Source of the DNA: a virus
Length of the DNA: 24,185 nt
Reading direction: 5' to 3' (one strand)
IMG/VR virus record: IMGVR_UViG_3300023061_000537
Coordinates: 1 to 24,185 of that record
Position 1 is the stretch's first letter, and every line of letters begins with the position of its first letter. The notes beneath the pieces were generated by a model. The model had not been told where the DNA came from. It did no database searches and saw nothing but the letters and a program-made list of their open reading frames with translations. Below, one piece after another: positions 2,954 through 20,805 of this stretch. The position numbers were made by a program, and so were the translations under genes.

Positions 2954-3223
2954 ATGAAAAAAGAAGATAAAAAAAAGAAAATTTACTCTACGACAAACTT
3001 TCATATCGCTAGTTGGTTACTACAAAACGATATTGAATTAGTAGATATTGATTGGGCGGATAAAAGGAGAGCACAATTCGTTTTTGATGACTTCAAAGAT
3101 AGAGAAACCTTGATACAAAACTTTTTTAAAGACATTAAAATACAAAGAAAAATCACATCAGATCAAGAGCTAAAAGCTCGAATGTATGCCGTGAACCCTC
3201 CAATCGAATATGACAGAAAATAA
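2954..3223 (+). CDS. DUF5659-like small protein
   Basis: An 89-residue protein. The pattern 'Y-S-T-T-x-F-x-x-A-S-W-L-L' followed by 'KRRAQFVFDD' matches my memory of DUF5659 proteins, small single-domain phage and bacterial proteins of unknown function. It has an AAGGA-type ribosome site. Its last codons have been rewritten by the neighbouring endonuclease gene: it now ends IEYDRK, while the endonuclease gene ends KEYDRSK in the same local DNA context. If the endonuclease element were removed, this gene would end IEYDRSK and overlap the recA start codon. Confidence 0.7.
   Translation: MKKEDKKKKIYSTTNFHIASWLLQNDIELVDIDWADKRRAQFVFDDFKDRETLIQNFFKDIKIQRKITSDQELKARMYAVNPPIEYDRK
3206..3217 (+). 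repeat. Left copy of 12-bp direct repeat flanking the LAGLIDADG gene
   Basis: GAATATGACAGA at 3206-3217 recurs at 3966-3977, 760 bases away. The left copy holds the start codon of the endonuclease gene (3210), and the right copy holds the start codon of recA (3970). The pair brackets the endonuclease gene precisely. Confidence 0.75.
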
Positions 3224-3986
3224 TAAAGAAAATCGAAAGAGTAATGGGACTTTTTTAAAAGGATATATTCCTTGGAATAAAGGGAAAAAAGGTGTCTATT
3301 CAAAAAAAACTTTAGAGAGAATGAGTAGTTCTAGTAGAAAGTATTCTTTAAATCAAGATTATTTTAATCAACCATTAGATGAAACCAGAGCATATTGGAT
3401 TGGGTTCTTGATAGCCGATGGCGGTATTGTTGACAACCAGGTTAGTTTAAATTTAAAAGATAAAGATCATATTGAAAAATTCAGGATAGCCATAAACTAT
3501 GGTGGTTTGATTGGATATCGTAGATATAAAGGATTATATGGTCGTAAAGAAAGATATGATGGTTGGTCACTTCAAGTAAGGTCTAACAAAATGGTTGATT
3601 CTCTCGCAAAATTTGGTATTGTTTCTCGAAAATCTTTTAAAACATATATTCCAAATCTTCCCCAAAGTTTACTTAAACCTCTTTTCAGAGGGTTGGTTGA
3701 TGGAGATGGTTGTATTTTTAAAACCAATCAGGGATGGTGGGGGCTCAATTTAGTAGGGACAAAACAAATAGTAACTTCTTTTAAAATTTGGATAAACAAA
3801 CAAACAAAAAACACCAAGGGTTCAATATCTAAAAAAGAAAAGATATGGATAGTAAGATTTGGAGGGAATCCTTCAACATGGGAAGTTGTAAATTTGTTAT
3901 ACAAAGATGCTTCTCAAGAAATTAGATTAGAAAGAAAATATTTTAAATATTTAGAATTTAAAAAAGAATATGACAGATCTAAATAG
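3210..3986 (+). CDS. Free-standing LAGLIDADG homing endonuclease
   Basis: A 258-residue protein with two LAGLIDADG helices: 'YWIGFLIADGG' (62-72) and 'LFRGLVDGDG' (158-167), each with its catalytic acidic residue. This is the single-chain, pseudo-dimeric architecture that cuts a long asymmetric target. The N-terminus (about 12-40, with 'GYIPWNKGKKG') looks like a short NUMOD-type DNA-binding motif common in homing endonucleases. It sits exactly between the DUF5659-like gene and recA, overlapping the first by 14 bases and recA by 17 bases. There is no ribosome site of its own, so translation is presumably by coupling. Both motifs look intact, so the enzyme is probably active. The likely target is the uninterrupted junction or the adjacent recA. 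Confidence 0.9.
   Translation: MTENNKENRKSNGTFLKGYIPWNKGKKGVYSKKTLERMSSSSRKYSLNQDYFNQPLDETRAYWIGFLIADGGIVDNQVSLNLKDKDHIEKFRIAINYGGLIGYRRYKGLYGRKERYDGWSLQVRSNKMVDSLAKFGIVSRKSFKTYIPNLPQSLLKPLFRGLVDGDGCIFKTNQGWWGLNLVGTKQIVTSFKIWINKQTKNTKGSISKKEKIWIVRFGGNPSTWEVVNLLYKDASQEIRLERKYFKYLEFKKEYDRSK
3966..3977 (+). repeat. Right copy of 12-bp direct repeat flanking the LAGLIDADG gene
   Basis: This is the second copy of GAATATGACAGA. Here the bases encode the last codons of the endonuclease (E-Y-D-R) and also contain the recA ATG at 3970. Confidence 0.75.
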
Positions 3987-6027
3987 AGTAATACGGAAAA
4001 TCAATAAAAGGTTTGGCGAAAATACAATCGGCAAGATTGGTAAAATGCCAACCATTAAGACTGAAAGAGTATCTTCTGGTTCTCCTTATCTCGATTGGGC
4101 AATCGGTGGCGGTTGGCCTTTAGGTAAAACGATTGAATTATACGGGCCTTATTCTTCAGGAAAATCTTTAATTGCTCTTAGAACTATTGTTCAGGCTCAA
4201 AAGTTAAATAAAAGATGTGTTTATCTAGATGCTGAGAATGCTTTTGATCCCAACTTTGCCAAATTAGTTGGTGTTGATGTAGACAATTTAACTATTTCTC
4301 AGATATCTGCTGGTGAAGAAGTTTTTGATATTGTCGATATGTTACTTGAATCTGATGTGTCTATTATTGTTATCGATAGTATCGCAGCACTTGTGCCTAA
4401 ATATGAGATAGAAGAATCGATAGAAAAGCAAACAATGGCATTACAGGCTAGATTAATGTCTAAAGCACTTCGTAAACTAACAGGAAAAGCAGCCAAAAAT
4501 AAGACATTAATTTTTTTCGTTAATCAGATTAGAGAGAAGCTAGGATGTTTCCAATATTACACAAGAATTGTTTTAGAAAATGGTAAAACAGCAAAAATAG
4601 GATATTTAGTTAATAACAAAATTAAATGTAATGTGCTTTCTTATAATGTTGAAAAAAACACTATTGAACCTACACCAATTACTAATTGGTTTACAAATGG
4701 CAATGCTGATTATTTTCTTCATTTTAGATTTAGAAAACCACAAGGGAGAGGTAAGGGCGAATTAAGTTGTACCCCCGACCACAAAATAATGGTTAAACCA
4801 GGTATCTATAAAAAAGCAAAAGATATAAAAGTAGGCGATAAAATATTAACTGTGATAAATGATTGGATACCAAGCAATATTCAAAAAGAAATTCTAATTG
4901 GCGGATTATTAGGTGATGGTTGTTTGAGAAAAGTTGGTAGAGAAAAGTATCAATATCGAGAAACTCATTGTAAAGAACAAGATGATTATATCCGTTGGAA
5001 ATCTAGTTATTTTGACACTAAAACAATGGGAAGACACAAATATGGTGGATTATATTTTGAAACATTTTTAAGCACAATATTTGAACAGCAATATATTAAA
5101 TTTTATTTAGGTGGTAAAAAAGTTAAAGTGCCAAAAGATATTAAATTAACTCCTTTAATTTTAGCTATTTGGTATCAAGATGATGGATATCTTACAGGAA
5201 ATAAAAAAAGTGGTAAGAAATCTATAAATTTATGTACCAATTCTTTTAGATTACAATCAATAAAGAATTTACAGATAGCATTAAAAGAACAATTTAATAT
5301 TGAAACAGGTACCAAAACAAGAAAGCATAATTCGGAAATTGAACTGACTTTAGGAAGAAAAGATACTTTAAAGTTTTTTGAGATATGTAAATATCTTATT
5401 CATCCATCAATGTATTACAAATTACCATCTTATTTATTACTTGACCGAATAGAATATATGGATATGAAGGTAATGAGGTGGAAATTTGATCCACCACAAT
5501 ATGAATATGAAAAAAAAGAATTGATTACTAAATATGCCTATGTTACTCATAAATATAATAAACCACAAACGAGAAGTATGGTTAAATTTGATATAGAAAC
5601 AAAAAATCATAATTATTTAGCTGATGGGGCTATTGTTCATAATTCATATGGCAACCCCGAAATAACGAGTGGCGGTAGATCTTTAGGTTTTTATGCTTCT
5701 TTGCGGGTTGAGGTTAGACGAGGTGAGTTTTTGACGGACAATAAGAGAAAAATTGGACAGCAAGTCAAGTTTAAGGTAACGAAATCCAAAGTTTGTCAAC
5801 CATATAGGGATGGTTATTTTTTGTTTTATTATCCTGATTTAAAGAATCCTGATTTAGAATTGTTTGATAATGCTGATGAATTGGTTTCTATGCTTTTACT
5901 ACATGGCAAAATCAAGAGGCGTGGCAGTTATTACGATGTTTTAGGTGAAACATTTCAGGGCAGAGAAGAATTAGAAAGTGAGATTAGGAGTAATAAAAAG
6001 TTTAGAGTGAAACTTAAAAAACTATGA
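3970..6027 (+). CDS. recA: RecA recombinase interrupted by an intein
   Basis: The translation is 685 residues, of which 366 are an intein; the spliced RecA would be about 319 residues, slightly shorter than typical RecA. The extein shows Walker A 'GPYSSGKS' (59-66), a DAEN motif (87-90), Walker B 'IIVIDS' (132-137) and 'FVNQIR' (183-188), then after the intein 'YGNPEITSGG', the L2 DNA-binding loop. The ATP-driven strand-exchange function is therefore inferred to depend on splicing, because the intein splits the L2 region. The gene overlaps the LAGLIDADG gene upstream and, by ATGA (6024-6027), the methyltransferase downstream. It probably supports phage recombination-dependent replication or repair. 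The host copy is not visible, so redundancy cannot be judged. Confidence 0.93.
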   Translation: MTDLNRVIRKINKRFGENTIGKIGKMPTIKTERVSSGSPYLDWAIGGGWPLGKTIELYGPYSSGKSLIALRTIVQAQKLNKRCVYLDAENAFDPNFAKLVGVDVDNLTISQISAGEEVFDIVDMLLESDVSIIVIDSIAALVPKYEIEESIEKQTMALQARLMSKALRKLTGKAAKNKTLIFFVNQIREKLGCFQYYTRIVLENGKTAKIGYLVNNKIKCNVLSYNVEKNTIEPTPITNWFTNGNADYFLHFRFRKPQGRGKGELSCTPDHKIMVKPGIYKKAKDIKVGDKILTVINDWIPSNIQKEILIGGLLGDGCLRKVGREKYQYRETHCKEQDDYIRWKSSYFDTKTMGRHKYGGLYFETFLSTIFEQQYIKFYLGGKKVKVPKDIKLTPLILAIWYQDDGYLTGNKKSGKKSINLCTNSFRLQSIKNLQIALKEQFNIETGTKTRKHNSEIELTLGRKDTLKFFEICKYLIHPSMYYKLPSYLLLDRIEYMDMKVMRWKFDPPQYEYEKKELITKYAYVTHKYNKPQTRSMVKFDIETKNHNYLADGAIVHNSYGNPEITSGGRSLGFYASLRVEVRRGEFLTDNKRKIGQQVKFKVTKSKVCQPYRDGYFLFYYPDLKNPDLELFDNADELVSMLLLHGKIKRRGSYYDVLGETFQGREELESEIRSNKKFRVKLKKL
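4546..5643 (+). mobile_element. RecA intein with LAGLIDADG endonuclease domain
   Basis: In-frame insertion of 366 residues, from C193 to N558 of the RecA translation. The first residue is Cys (splicing nucleophile). Block B 'CTPDH' gives T268 and H271. The end 'GAIVHN' followed by Ser559 has the penultimate His, the C-terminal Asn and a +1 Ser nucleophile. The central part has two endonuclease helices, 'LIGGLLGDG' (RecA numbering about 309-317) and 'LAIWYQDDG' (about 398-406). All splicing residues I can check are present, so it should be a functional, mobile mini-HEG intein. Insertion is in the L2 loop, the most conserved part of RecA. Mycobacterial RecA inteins are known; I recall that M. 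leprae's also lies near L2, but I have not compared sequences. Confidence 0.9.
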
Positions 6028-8375: not shown

Positions 8376-8591
8376 ATGTTATTAGCAGGCGCTGAAGGTG
8401 GATATGTTTTTGAAGAAGTTGTTCCCACCGCAACAAATACAGCAACATTAGTAGAACCCGTTCCTACCCCCGTTAATTTGCTTTCAGACGAAAAGAAAGA
8501 ACTTAACGGCTTAAATTATTGGATTTTTCTAGTAGTAGTTGCTGTTTTAATGGCCGTTAGTATGATTTCCATATTTAAAAAGAGAAAGTGA
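8376..8591 (+). CDS. Small single-pass membrane protein
   Basis: A 71-residue protein with a strong TTAGGAGGTG ribosome site. Residues about 10-45 are a Pro/Thr/Val-rich stretch with 'PTATNTATL' and 'PVPTPV'. A single transmembrane helix spans about 47-66 and a short basic tail (KKRK) follows. By the positive-inside rule the N-terminus would face outward. No function is recognised. Its stop codon TGA (8589-8591) overlaps a GTG at 8588, which begins the remnant of a displaced gene start (see 8588-8641). It could be a superinfection or envelope protein, but this is a guess. Confidence 0.75.
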   Translation: MLLAGAEGGYVFEEVVPTATNTATLVEPVPTPVNLLSDEKKELNGLNYWIFLVVVAVLMAVSMISIFKKRK

Positions 8592-8593
8592 AA

Positions 8594-8607
8594 ACTTGGC
8601 AAAAAAA
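8594..8607 (+). repeat. Left 14-bp repeat flanking the HNH cassette
   Basis: ACTTGGCAAAAAAA occurs here and again at 9322-9335, 728 bases away. The left copy lies in the stub of the nuclease gene start. Confidence 0.65.
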
Positions 8608-8609
8608 AC

Positions 8610-8638
8610 TTGATATTTCTTGGCATCTATGTTATACT
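8610..8638 (+). promoter_or_regulatory. Sigma-70-like promoter of the HNH gene
   Basis: TTGATA (8610-8615) and TATACT (8633-8638) are separated by 17 bases. Initiation would fall about 8644-8646, only 2-4 bases before the ATG at 8648, giving a leaderless transcript. No ribosome site precedes the ATG. Confidence 0.72.
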
Positions 8639-8654
8639 TAACACAAGATGCCAA
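8620..8654 (+). promoter_or_regulatory. 9-bp inverted repeat over promoter and start codon
   Basis: TTGGCATCT (8620-8628) is complementary to AGATGCCAA (8646-8654), with 17 bases between. The right arm contains the HNH start codon and the loop contains the -10 element. In RNA made by read-through from upstream, the start codon would be paired. RNA made from the internal promoter lacks the left arm and would be free. It could instead be an operator for a repressor. Confidence 0.65.
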
Positions 8655-9307
8655 TAGGAATATATAAACGTACAAAAAAGCATTTAGAAGTTATGAGTAA
8701 AATCACAAAGCAATTGTGGCAGAATAAAGATTATAGAAAAAAACAAATTGAGGCTCATAAAGGTCATAAATTTAGTAAAGAAACAAAAAAGCGCATGAGT
8801 GAAGCTCGGAAAGGGAAAAAATGCCCATGGGCTGGCAAATACAAAAAAACGGAAGATCATAAAAGAAAATTATCAGAAGTTCATAAAGGAATGAAAAAAC
8901 CATGGGCGGGGAAATATAAACGTACTTTAGAAACTAGAAAGCATATGAGTGAACAAATGAAAAAGTCTGGGAGAAAACCTCCTTCTCAATTAGGAATGAA
9001 AGGAAGTAAAAGTGGCGGTTGGAAAGGTGGGGTTACAAAGAAAAATACTTTAATTAGAAATAGTAGAGAATTCGATCTTTGGCGGAAGTCTGTTTTTGCC
9101 AGAGATAATTATACTTGTCAGAAAACAGGAAAGAAGGGTGGAGAATTACATCCTCACCATATTCAAAATTTTGCTCAATTTCCCGAATTAAGATTTGTAG
9201 TTAGTAATGGAATTACATTAAGCGAAAAAAGCCATAAAAAATTTCATAGAATATATGGAACAAAGAATAATACCAAAAAACAAATAAAGGAATTTTTGGA
9301 AAATTAA
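8648..9307 (+). CDS. NUMOD3/HNH homing endonuclease
   Basis: A 219-residue protein. The first ~115 residues are basic repeats of the NUMOD3 kind ('ETKKRMSEARKGKK', 'HKRKLSEVHKGMKKPWAGK') that bind DNA. The C-terminal HNH nuclease has 'FARDNYTCQKTGKKGGE', the metal-binding 'HPHH' (168-171), 'SNGITLSEKSHKKFH' (186-200). It would nick or cut DNA at a homing target. It has its own promoter inside an inverted repeat and is flanked by 14-bp direct repeats that copy the start of the following nuclease gene. It is clearly paralogous to the endonuclease at 20158 (same order of NUMOD repeats and a very similar HNH block). The N-terminus starts MPIGIYKRT, like MPKGIYKHK of that relative. Confidence 0.92.
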   Translation: MPIGIYKRTKKHLEVMSKITKQLWQNKDYRKKQIEAHKGHKFSKETKKRMSEARKGKKCPWAGKYKKTEDHKRKLSEVHKGMKKPWAGKYKRTLETRKHMSEQMKKSGRKPPSQLGMKGSKSGGWKGGVTKKNTLIRNSREFDLWRKSVFARDNYTCQKTGKKGGELHPHHIQNFAQFPELRFVVSNGITLSEKSHKKFHRIYGTKNNTKKQIKEFLEN

Positions 9308-9309
9308 TT

Positions 9310-9618
9310 ATGAGTAAAACCACTTGGCAAAAAAAGGAAATTAAAGACGCTAAACAATTTGGTGGACGACGCACTCCTAAAAGTGGAGGGTTTTGGTCGT
9401 TCGCAGGGGATGTCGTAACGAAAGACTACCTAATCGATTCTAAGACAACCGATAAAGAAGGATTTCGGATAACATCGAGTGTGTGGACTAAATTGTTCAA
9501 CGAGGCATTAAAATCCAGAAAGCTGCCAATATTATCAATTTTACTTATAAAGAAGGGAATTGAATTAGTAGTTCTGGATAAAAATGATTTTATTAGTTTA
9601 TTAGAGAAAAAGAAATGA
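9310..9618 (+). CDS. PD-(D/E)XK-like nuclease, Hjc/resolvase-like
   Basis: A 102-residue protein. 'GGRRTPKSGG' (18-27) then 'GDVVTKDYLIDSKTT' (33-47) give D34 and D43-x-K45, the D...(E/D)xK core of a small PD-(D/E)XK nuclease; the basic segment before it resembles archaeal-type Holliday junction resolvases and phage recombination endonucleases. 'VWTKLFNEALKS' follows as an amphipathic helix. Probably cuts branched DNA; the substrate is inferred. The gene begins just after the HNH gene and its 5' end is repeated at 8594, so the endonuclease cassette sits against it. It overlaps the next small gene by ATGA (9615-9618). This is the second such nuclease in the window. Confidence 0.72.
   Translation: MSKTTWQKKEIKDAKQFGGRRTPKSGGFWSFAGDVVTKDYLIDSKTTDKEGFRITSSVWTKLFNEALKSRKLPILSILLIKKGIELVVLDKNDFISLLEKKK
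9322..9335 (+). repeat. Right 14-bp repeat flanking the HNH cassette
   Basis: The second copy of ACTTGGCAAAAAAA, here coding for T-W-Q-K-K near the start of the nuclease gene. Confidence 0.65.
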
Positions 9619-11701: not shown

Positions 11702-12109
11702 ATGGAAAGATTCTGGAAAAAGGTACAAAAAACGGATACTTGTTGGCTGTGGACAGCGGGCAGCAGGGGTAACGGTTATGGTTGTATCAAGTACAAAGGA
11801 AAGGTACATGATGCACATAGATTTGTTTGGTTCTTGACCCATGGGTCTTTTTCCAAAAAGTGGATATTGCATAAATGCAATAACCGCAAATGTGTCAATC
11901 CTGAGCACCTTTATGAAGGGACACCGAAACAAAATTTTGATGACATGGAGAGAGCTGGAACAAGGTTCGTCCAAAAATCAAAATATGCTTCTCCCGCAGA
12001 CAGAAGAAGAAAAACGTGGATGCGGTGGTATGAAAAGGCCAAAAATGAGCCTGGCAGAGAGAGGTATAATCGGTGGAGAAAAACACAAAAGTCAAAGAAG
12101 GACAATTAG
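11702..12109 (+). CDS. HNH_3-type homing endonuclease inside tRNA cluster
   Basis: A 135-residue protein. The start 'MERFWKKVQKTDTCWLWTAG' and 'GYG' followed by 'AHRFVW' (38-43) are the classic N-terminal part of the HNH_3 family. 'ILHKCNNRKCVNPEHLYEGT' (55-74) is the beta-beta-alpha metal site, with H57, N66 and H69. A basic tail follows. It would nick DNA during homing. It sits between tRNA-Pro and tRNA-Asp, and its last codons (Lys-Asp-Asn-stop, 12098-12109) overlap the first 10 bases of tRNA-Asp, including the acceptor strand. This suggests it uses a tRNA gene as its insertion site. The overlapping frame 11841-12212 looks like a shadow. Confidence 0.9.
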   Translation: MERFWKKVQKTDTCWLWTAGSRGNGYGCIKYKGKVHDAHRFVWFLTHGSFSKKWILHKCNNRKCVNPEHLYEGTPKQNFDDMERAGTRFVQKSKYASPADRRRKTWMRWYEKAKNEPGRERYNRWRKTQKSKKDN

Positions 12110-12170
12110 TTTAGTGGCAAAACTTTCCCCTGTCACGGGAAGATCAAGGGTTCAATTCCCTTATTGTCCG
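12100..12170 (+). tRNA. tRNA-Asp (GTC)
   Basis: Acceptor GGACAAT/ATTGTCC, anticodon stem TTCCC/GGGAA with loop CTGTCAC, anticodon GTC, T arm AAGGG-TTCAATT-CCCTT, discriminator G. The first 10 bases are also the last codons of the HNH_3 gene. Well formed. Confidence 0.93.
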
Positions 12171-20157: not shown

Positions 20158-20805
20158 ATGCCTAAAGGAATTTATAAACATAAACCATTATCTAAATCAG
20201 TTAAAGAAAAATTAAGCAAATCTTTATCTGGTAGAAAGAGACCGTCTTTTAGTAAAGAATGGAAAAAGAAAATGAGTAAATCTCATAAAGGAATGAAAAA
20301 ACCATGGGTAAGTAAATTAATGAAGGGTAAAAAATTATCTGAAGAAACAAAATTAAAAATGAGTAAGACACAAACAGGTATGAAAAGAAAACCATTTACT
20401 GAAAAAGCCAAAGAAAATATGAGAAAGGCTAGAGAAGGAATAAAGTTATCTAAAGAAACTAGAAAAAAGATAAGCGAATCTCACAAAGGAGAAAAGTGTA
20501 ATTTTTGGAAAGGTGGTATAACTCCTAAAAATAAAGCTATTAGAAATTCTATTGAATTTAGATTATGGCGAGAATCAGTATTTGCTCGAGATAGTTATAC
20601 ATGTCAAAAAACAGGAAAAAGGGGCGGAACATTACACCCACACCATATCAAAAACTTTTCTGATTATCCTAAGTTAAGGTTTGCAATAGACAATGGGATA
20701 ACTTTTTCAGAGAAGGCTCACAAGGAATTTCATAAGAAATATGGAAAAAGAAACAATAATGAAGCACAATTAAAGGATTTTTTAAAGAATCAATTATGGG
20801 AATGA
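20158..20805 (+). CDS. NUMOD3/HNH homing endonuclease (paralogue of 8648)
   Basis: A 215-residue protein with basic NUMOD3 repeats over 10-115 ('FSKEWKKKMSKSHKG', 'SEETKLKMSKTQTGMKRK') and an HNH nuclease at the C-terminus: 'FARDSYTCQKTGKRGG', 'HPHH' (160-163), 'DNGITFSEKAHKEFHKKYG'. Almost the same block order as the endonuclease at 8648, so the two come from one invasion or two related ones. It lacks the promoter and inverted repeat of that gene. It starts 27 bases after the Excalibur gene and ends with ATGA into the following zinc-ribbon gene (20802-20805), as other homing genes here do. Probably active, as the metal-binding residues are present. Confidence 0.9.
   Translation: MPKGIYKHKPLSKSVKEKLSKSLSGRKRPSFSKEWKKKMSKSHKGMKKPWVSKLMKGKKLSEETKLKMSKTQTGMKRKPFTEKAKENMRKAREGIKLSKETRKKISESHKGEKCNFWKGGITPKNKAIRNSIEFRLWRESVFARDSYTCQKTGKRGGTLHPHHIKNFSDYPKLRFAIDNGITFSEKAHKEFHKKYGKRNNNEAQLKDFLKNQLWE

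Follow-up and report, generated by a model that had tools for sequence, protein, structure and literature searches.

How can a selfish gene enter the start of another gene, spare that gene and yet control its own expression? The question is raised by a locus in the IMG/VR virus record IMGVR_UViG_3300023061_000537, the 24,185 bases of which are here called the window; coordinates are window positions unless another locus is named, and the features of the locus lie on the + strand. An earlier, sequence-only reading had listed a GTGA overlap, a nuclease stub, a 14-bp repeat, a promoter, an inverted repeat, an HNH gene and a repeated nuclease start, and all these elements are present where they were placed. 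The answer that we consider probable is that a NUMOD3-HNH homing cassette occupies the 5' end of a resolvase-like nuclease gene and carries a self-contained switch for its own expression, consisting of a promoter and a hairpin. Comparison with related loci shows the insertion to be real and mobile, and the built-in switch is plausible from modelling. Such a cassette design would explain how all parts of the question can be satisfied at the same time.

Layout of the Locus

An ssb gene (Pfam SSB, 7e-40) lies upstream of the cassette. The gene next to the cassette encodes a small membrane-protein-like product of 71 aa (8376..8591), and its TGA stop overlaps the old GTG start of the nuclease gene in the sequence GTGA at 8588-8591. 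From GTG 8588 a stub of 17 codons, V/M-K-T-W-Q-K-K-L-D-I-S-W-H-L-C-Y-T-stop, runs to TAA 8639-8641 (VKTWQKKLDISWHLCYT-stop, 8588..8641). This stub contains the left copy (8594..8607) of a 14-bp direct repeat, ACTTGGCAAAAAAA, derived from the target-gene start, and the conserved left edge of the cassette is found from about 8597. There follow the promoter (8610..8638), the hairpin (8613..8663) and the HNH gene (8648..9307, 219 aa). The 3' end of the cassette, TAATTATGAGTAAAACC (9305..9321), holds the HNH stop together with a new nuclease ATG. The target gene (9310..9618), encoding a Holliday-junction-resolvase-like nuclease of 102 aa (PHROG 2002, Holliday junction resolvase, 1e-17), restarts at this cassette-supplied ATG 9310 and reads M-S-K-T-T-W-Q-K-K, where the right copy of the repeat (9322..9335) provides the codons T-W-Q-K-K. 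The start of the nuclease gene is thus duplicated around the cassette, as had been claimed. Since the right end of the cassette supplies a new ATG, the target gene stays complete and only a short stub of its old start remains.

The HNH gene is recognized by Pfam (NUMOD3, 2.3e-12) and PHROG (HNH endonuclease, 1.4e-13) and belongs to the same protein family as the free-standing NUMOD3-HNH homing endonucleases of phages (PHROG 8446, 119 and 144), most of which are without the promoter-hairpin module of the window gene. The catalytic residues HHI...N...H are invariant among its relatives, and the protein would be expected to cleave DNA. There is no intron or intein around the gene, and the target gene continues directly from the cassette-supplied ATG; a reading of the insert as an intron was rejected when an Rfam scan at gathering thresholds returned tRNAs only.

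A similarity search against phage DNA gave no match, and neither did tblastn with the nuclease, and tblastn with the HNH protein against named phages matched the catalytic domain only, at less than 60% identity. A scan of a genome collection returned a single distant match, in an archaeal MAG, without the hairpin. The portal protein gave distant matches only, at about 22-25% identity, and therefore no host is assigned.

The window holds further genes of this kind. A second NUMOD3-HNH gene (20158-20805), about 52% identical to the first, is without the promoter-hairpin module. An HNH_3 gene (11702-12109) lies within a tRNA cluster and overlaps a tRNA gene (12100-12170) with its 3' end; here, the sequence TTGACA-17-TACCAT ends 5 nt before the ATG. 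At 3210-6027, a LAGLIDADG-like gene overlaps the start of recA, which itself encodes an intein that has a LAGLIDADG domain.

Empty and Occupied Sites in Related Viruses

When viral contigs were scanned with the nuclease as query, 13 loci were obtained. The HNH version of the window is also found in four loci (L003-L005 and L007), and the HNH gene is missing at this site in five relatives (L006, L008, L009, L010 and L013). Locus L006 is the empty site that the sequence-only reading had asked for: the 71-aa gene is followed at once by the nuclease gene, AAGAGAAAGTGAAGACTTGGCAACGAAAGGAAATT, with the GTGA overlap and the start M-K-T-W-Q, which matches the stub of the window. The junction of the two genes reads GTGAAGACTTGGCAACGAAAGGAAATT, the nuclease gene is 94.6% identical in nucleotides to that of the window, and this empty allele comes from the same sample as the HNH-carrying L004.

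In two further loci, L011 and L012, the same cassette stands before a nuclease that is only 60% identical in amino acids to that of the window. Identity to the window is 38-48% in the left flank, 72-97% in the cassette and 50-67% in the nuclease. The cassette 3' end, AATTATGAGTAAAACC, is the same as in the window and gives the nuclease a new start codon, from which it follows that the target gene receives its new ATG from the cassette. A third type of occupant is found in L039 (IMGVR_UViG_3300035698_008809), where the gene at 15-632 joins an N-terminal targeting half with NUMOD3, nearly identical to that of L011, to a different HNH domain (HNH_5, PF01844). This chimeric gene has the same insertion site, and its 3' end overlaps the nuclease ATG. 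A second HNH gene in L039 (1452-1937) is of the same catalytic type as the catalytic half of the chimera. The arrangement suggests that neighbouring endonuclease genes recombined.

The window, L011 and L039 are, in other words, occupied alleles of one site, and L006 is its empty allele. That the site is empty in L006 and occupied in L011, L012 and L039 makes a mobile and site-specific cassette well supported by sequence comparison. Together with the domain swap in L039, the empty and occupied sites provide a natural series for testing.

Promoter and Predicted Start of the HNH Message

The promoter consists of TTGATA (8610-8615) and TATACT (8633-8638), separated by 17 nt, with an extended -10 element (TGT). 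As judged by these -35 and -10 boxes and their spacing it looks sigma70-like, a consensus that may differ from that of the host. In 4 kb, 15 promoter matches were found versus 17.6 expected, so that the match alone is not significant in such AT-rich DNA; the informative part is its position. In L011 the promoter is kept as TTGATT-17-TATACT, with 11 of the 12 hexamer bases as in the window and the same spacing.

A gap of 9 nt separates the -10 box from the HNH ATG at 8648, and the predicted transcription start is at about 8645, i.e., 2-3 nt before the ATG. No Shine-Dalgarno sequence was found before the HNH start at ATG 8648, nor before those in L011 and L135, a locus with another HNH gene. From the position of the -10 box and the missing Shine-Dalgarno sequence it follows that a message from this promoter should be almost leaderless.

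Hairpin and Opening of the Start Codon

The region 8610-8670 folds with a minimum free energy of -21.0 kcal/mol, compared with a mean of -5.6 for shuffled sequences (z -6.9), and none of 200 shuffles folds as well. It ranks sixth in strength among the distinct hairpins that a two-strand scan of the window detects. A 9-bp inverted repeat had been proposed, and its arms, TTGGCATCT (8620-8628) and AGATGCCAA (8646-8654), are there, the right one holding the HNH ATG. The element that can fold is larger (8613-8663): the 9-bp stem is extended below by a stem in HNH codons 3-5 and on the inside by the stem TGTTA/TAACA, so that codons 1-5 are in the right arm, the -10 box is in the apical loop and the stub stop codon TAA 8639-8641 is at the edge of the loop.

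Consider now the same start codon on two different RNAs. On an RNA that reads through from upstream, the predicted cost of opening the HNH AUG is 10.7 kcal/mol; on RNA from the internal promoter, which lacks the left arm, it is 1.4-1.9 kcal/mol. These predictions bear out the earlier suggestion that the start codon is paired away on read-through RNA and more easily opened on internal RNA. Even on the internal RNA the AUG is unpaired with a probability of only about 0.05 at 37 °C, and it should accordingly be described as easy to open rather than free. When 566 non-redundant ORFs from all loci of the comparison were ranked by the difference in opening energy, the window HNH gene came first (9.3) and an HNH gene in L135 second (7.2), followed by 5.4 for the next ORF. 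The opening energy discriminated between ORFs, unlike a plain tally of the stem pairs that span the start site. The HNH gene in L135 is inserted at the end of another gene, and its promoter, hairpin and buried ATG (region 1340-1410) are laid out as in the window: the -10 box TATAAT lies 9 nt before the ATG, the left arm is GACATCT and the right arm, AGATGTT, contains the ATG.

Conservation gives mixed sequence-based support to the hairpin. With -10.8 to -11.9 kcal/mol, the hairpin of L011 is far less stable, and the opening costs there are 3.4 for read-through and 0.5 for internal RNA. When the window hairpin was mutated at random to the divergence of L011, as much stability as L011 has was left in 40% of the trials (null P 0.40). 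At two places in the inner stem, the window and L011 differ by a compensatory double change (null P 0.004, from a post hoc comparison of one homologous pair), a result that would fit a DNA palindrome as well as an RNA stem. Most of 65 HNH relatives are without such a hairpin.

Comparison with Known Systems

A hairpin combined with an internal promoter is known for I-TevI, I-TevII and I-TevIII, segB and Aeh1 mobE (PMC2988022). In the three T4 I-Tev genes, as is predicted for the window, a start hairpin is present on upstream transcripts and RNA from the internal promoter is without the left arm; I-TevI and the window furthermore share a possible operator beside the promoter (PMC2988022). The I-Tev genes are intron-encoded, have a sequestered Shine-Dalgarno sequence and use T4 middle or late promoters. 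The window gene differs from them in that it is free-standing, has no Shine-Dalgarno sequence to sequester but a paired start codon, and has a sigma70-like promoter from which a near-leaderless message is predicted. The hairpin would hide the translation start on upstream RNA, as predicted by the opening cost above, and the position of the -10 box, in the apical loop and ahead of the predicted start site, fits a promoter that lies inside the hairpin. Hence, the earlier comparison with I-TevI holds for the control logic. It does not hold for the timing: the promoter is an ordinary sigma70-looking one, with -35 and -10 boxes 17 nt apart and not of the T4 late type, so that nothing indicates late expression, and the idea that the element controls timing is not supported.

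Similar in genetic setting are Aeh1 mobE of an Aeromonas phage and T4 segB, two free-standing genes for endonucleases that have a hairpin over their start region; like the window gene, mobE encodes an HNH enzyme (PMC2988022). Both differ from the window gene by sequestration of a ribosome binding site and by T4-type expression, and the likeness is one of layout. Near-leaderless starts also have precedents, since -10 boxes adjoining ORFs give leaderless mRNA in Deinococcus, an arrangement established in Deinococcus-Thermus (PMC12340547). For the HNH genes inserted in methylase genes of mycobacteriophages (ShiLan domain), which like the window gene have no detectable ribosome binding site, leaderless initiation has been proposed; unlike the window gene, they lie out of frame inside the host gene and start with GTG (PMC11855218). 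In the text of that paper the term promoter is absent, and hairpin is used only for a protein structure.

A Model for the Switch and Its Alternatives

In the proposed switch, HNH codons 1-5 would be part of a hairpin within which the sigma70-like promoter lies. Messages reading through from the upstream ssb operon would fold the hairpin and, having no Shine-Dalgarno sequence, would give no HNH protein. Messages initiated at the internal promoter (about 8645) would begin 2-3 nt before the ATG, escape the left arm and be translated as near-leaderless mRNA. As the nuclease gene starts 2 nt after the HNH stop, the same promoter may also restore expression of the target gene. More speculatively, the left stub beside the -35 box may double as half a homing site for autorepression, as in I-TevI. 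If the model is true, the T4 logic by which a hairpin silences homing endonucleases on host operon messages exists outside T4-like phages, in a form where hairpin control works without a ribosome binding site; modelling indicates that this logic should extend to a new setting, with a gene's own promoter inside the RNA hairpin at a free-standing HNH gene.

The inverted repeat could instead act as DNA: an operator spanning the promoter would bind a phage repressor or, in I-TevI-like autorepression, the HNH protein itself, and the RNA hairpin would then be incidental. The arms do flank the -10 box, the compensatory changes preserve palindrome and stem alike, and the left target-site stub, which L011 retains, adjoins the -35 box, in line with the resemblance of the I-TevI operator to its homing site (PMC2988022). 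What makes an operator unlikely is that pairing in the RNA form is extended by the lower stem, ATATTTC/GGAATAT, and by internal bulges, and that the window and L135 have the largest start-codon occlusion of the 566 ORFs, for which an operator has no need. It is equally improbable that the hairpin is without function, having arisen by chance where an AT-rich left flank lies opposite start codons that are fixed as MPxGIY, with HNH weakly expressed from read-through RNA or from the promoter. A functionless hairpin would account for the fact that stability in L011 is no greater than random mutation would leave and that most HNH relatives have none, but it is at odds with the z value and the 200 shuffles, with the top rank and the matching layout in L135, and with the two compensatory changes.

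The read-through RNA, on the other hand, need not be silent. Stop/start overlaps favour translational coupling, and ribosomes that leave the 71-aa gene could start again at the overlapping GTG 8588, read the stub across the left arm as far as its stop codon in the loop, and initiate once more at the HNH ATG 6 nt further on. The stub frame is indeed open to a stop just before this ATG, and translation of it could open the hairpin on read-through RNA; since L011 does not share this arrangement, having neither the 71-aa gene nor a corresponding stub frame with its end in the loop, we regard such coupling as quite unlikely. Very unlikely, finally, is the alternative that the cassette is no homing element but inserted in the manner of a transposon, with the 14-bp repeat as its target-site duplication. 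The insert is flanked by direct repeats, as are HNH genes in L026 (20 bp) and L010 (13 bp, tRNA 5' end), but three different cassettes occupy the same site of one gene in the window, L011 and L039, as homing would predict, neither a transposase nor terminal inverted repeats were seen, and the L011 copies are not exact repeats.

HNH Genes Elsewhere

The position of the promoter is not peculiar to the window gene. A promoter score of 9 or more, with a -10 box ending 5-11 nt before the ATG, was found for 19 ORFs, of which Pfam, PHROG or motif identify 15 as HNH genes (some being homologous pairs, so that not all are independent), compared with four of 30 randomly drawn other ORFs, classified by eye from sequence motifs (Fisher 9e-6). 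This is a reclassified comparison, made after a crude HNH regular expression had given a non-significant P of 0.12 because it left several HNH genes in the control group. The preponderance of HNH genes in this set suggests that promoters of their own, with near-leaderless messages, are common among these HNH genes, and that a strong hairpin is present in few. Viral contigs were also scanned for the hairpin motif CATCT..TGnTATAnT..AGATG; the hits were mostly unrelated ORFs with no further HNH case, which means that sequence alone does not define the promoter-hairpin module.

A broader proposal can be put forward tentatively, as a possibility that we rate below even chance: free-standing HNH elements in many environmental phages may share a portable start module, in which a near-leaderless mRNA is made from a sigma70-like promoter that stands 5-11 nt ahead of the ATG, some members are silenced by a hairpin on read-through RNA, and the target end is rebuilt by duplication. 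Were this so, the selfish gene would be uncoupled from whatever operon receives it. Flanking repeats of at least 13 bp occur in 3 of 81 HNH genes versus 1 of 314 others, a weak excess under a loose motif-based HNH call.

Three single cases may be added. In L010, an HNH gene (5260-5619) precedes a tRNA gene, and 13 bp of the tRNA 5' end (AAGCGGGATTAGT) recur beyond the other end of the HNH gene; the HNH gene (region 5200-5680) has TTGATT-17-TATAAT 8 nt before its ATG, and a related gene is found in L049. In L026 (2697-3507), the flanking repeat is 20 bp long and the end of the upstream frame, SQEDIKKYSK, recurs as the HNH C-terminus. In L198 (12650-12715), a non-HNH ORF has its ATG in a strong hairpin, TTCATCTATGC/GCATAGATGGA, of -21 kcal/mol with TATATT in the loop.
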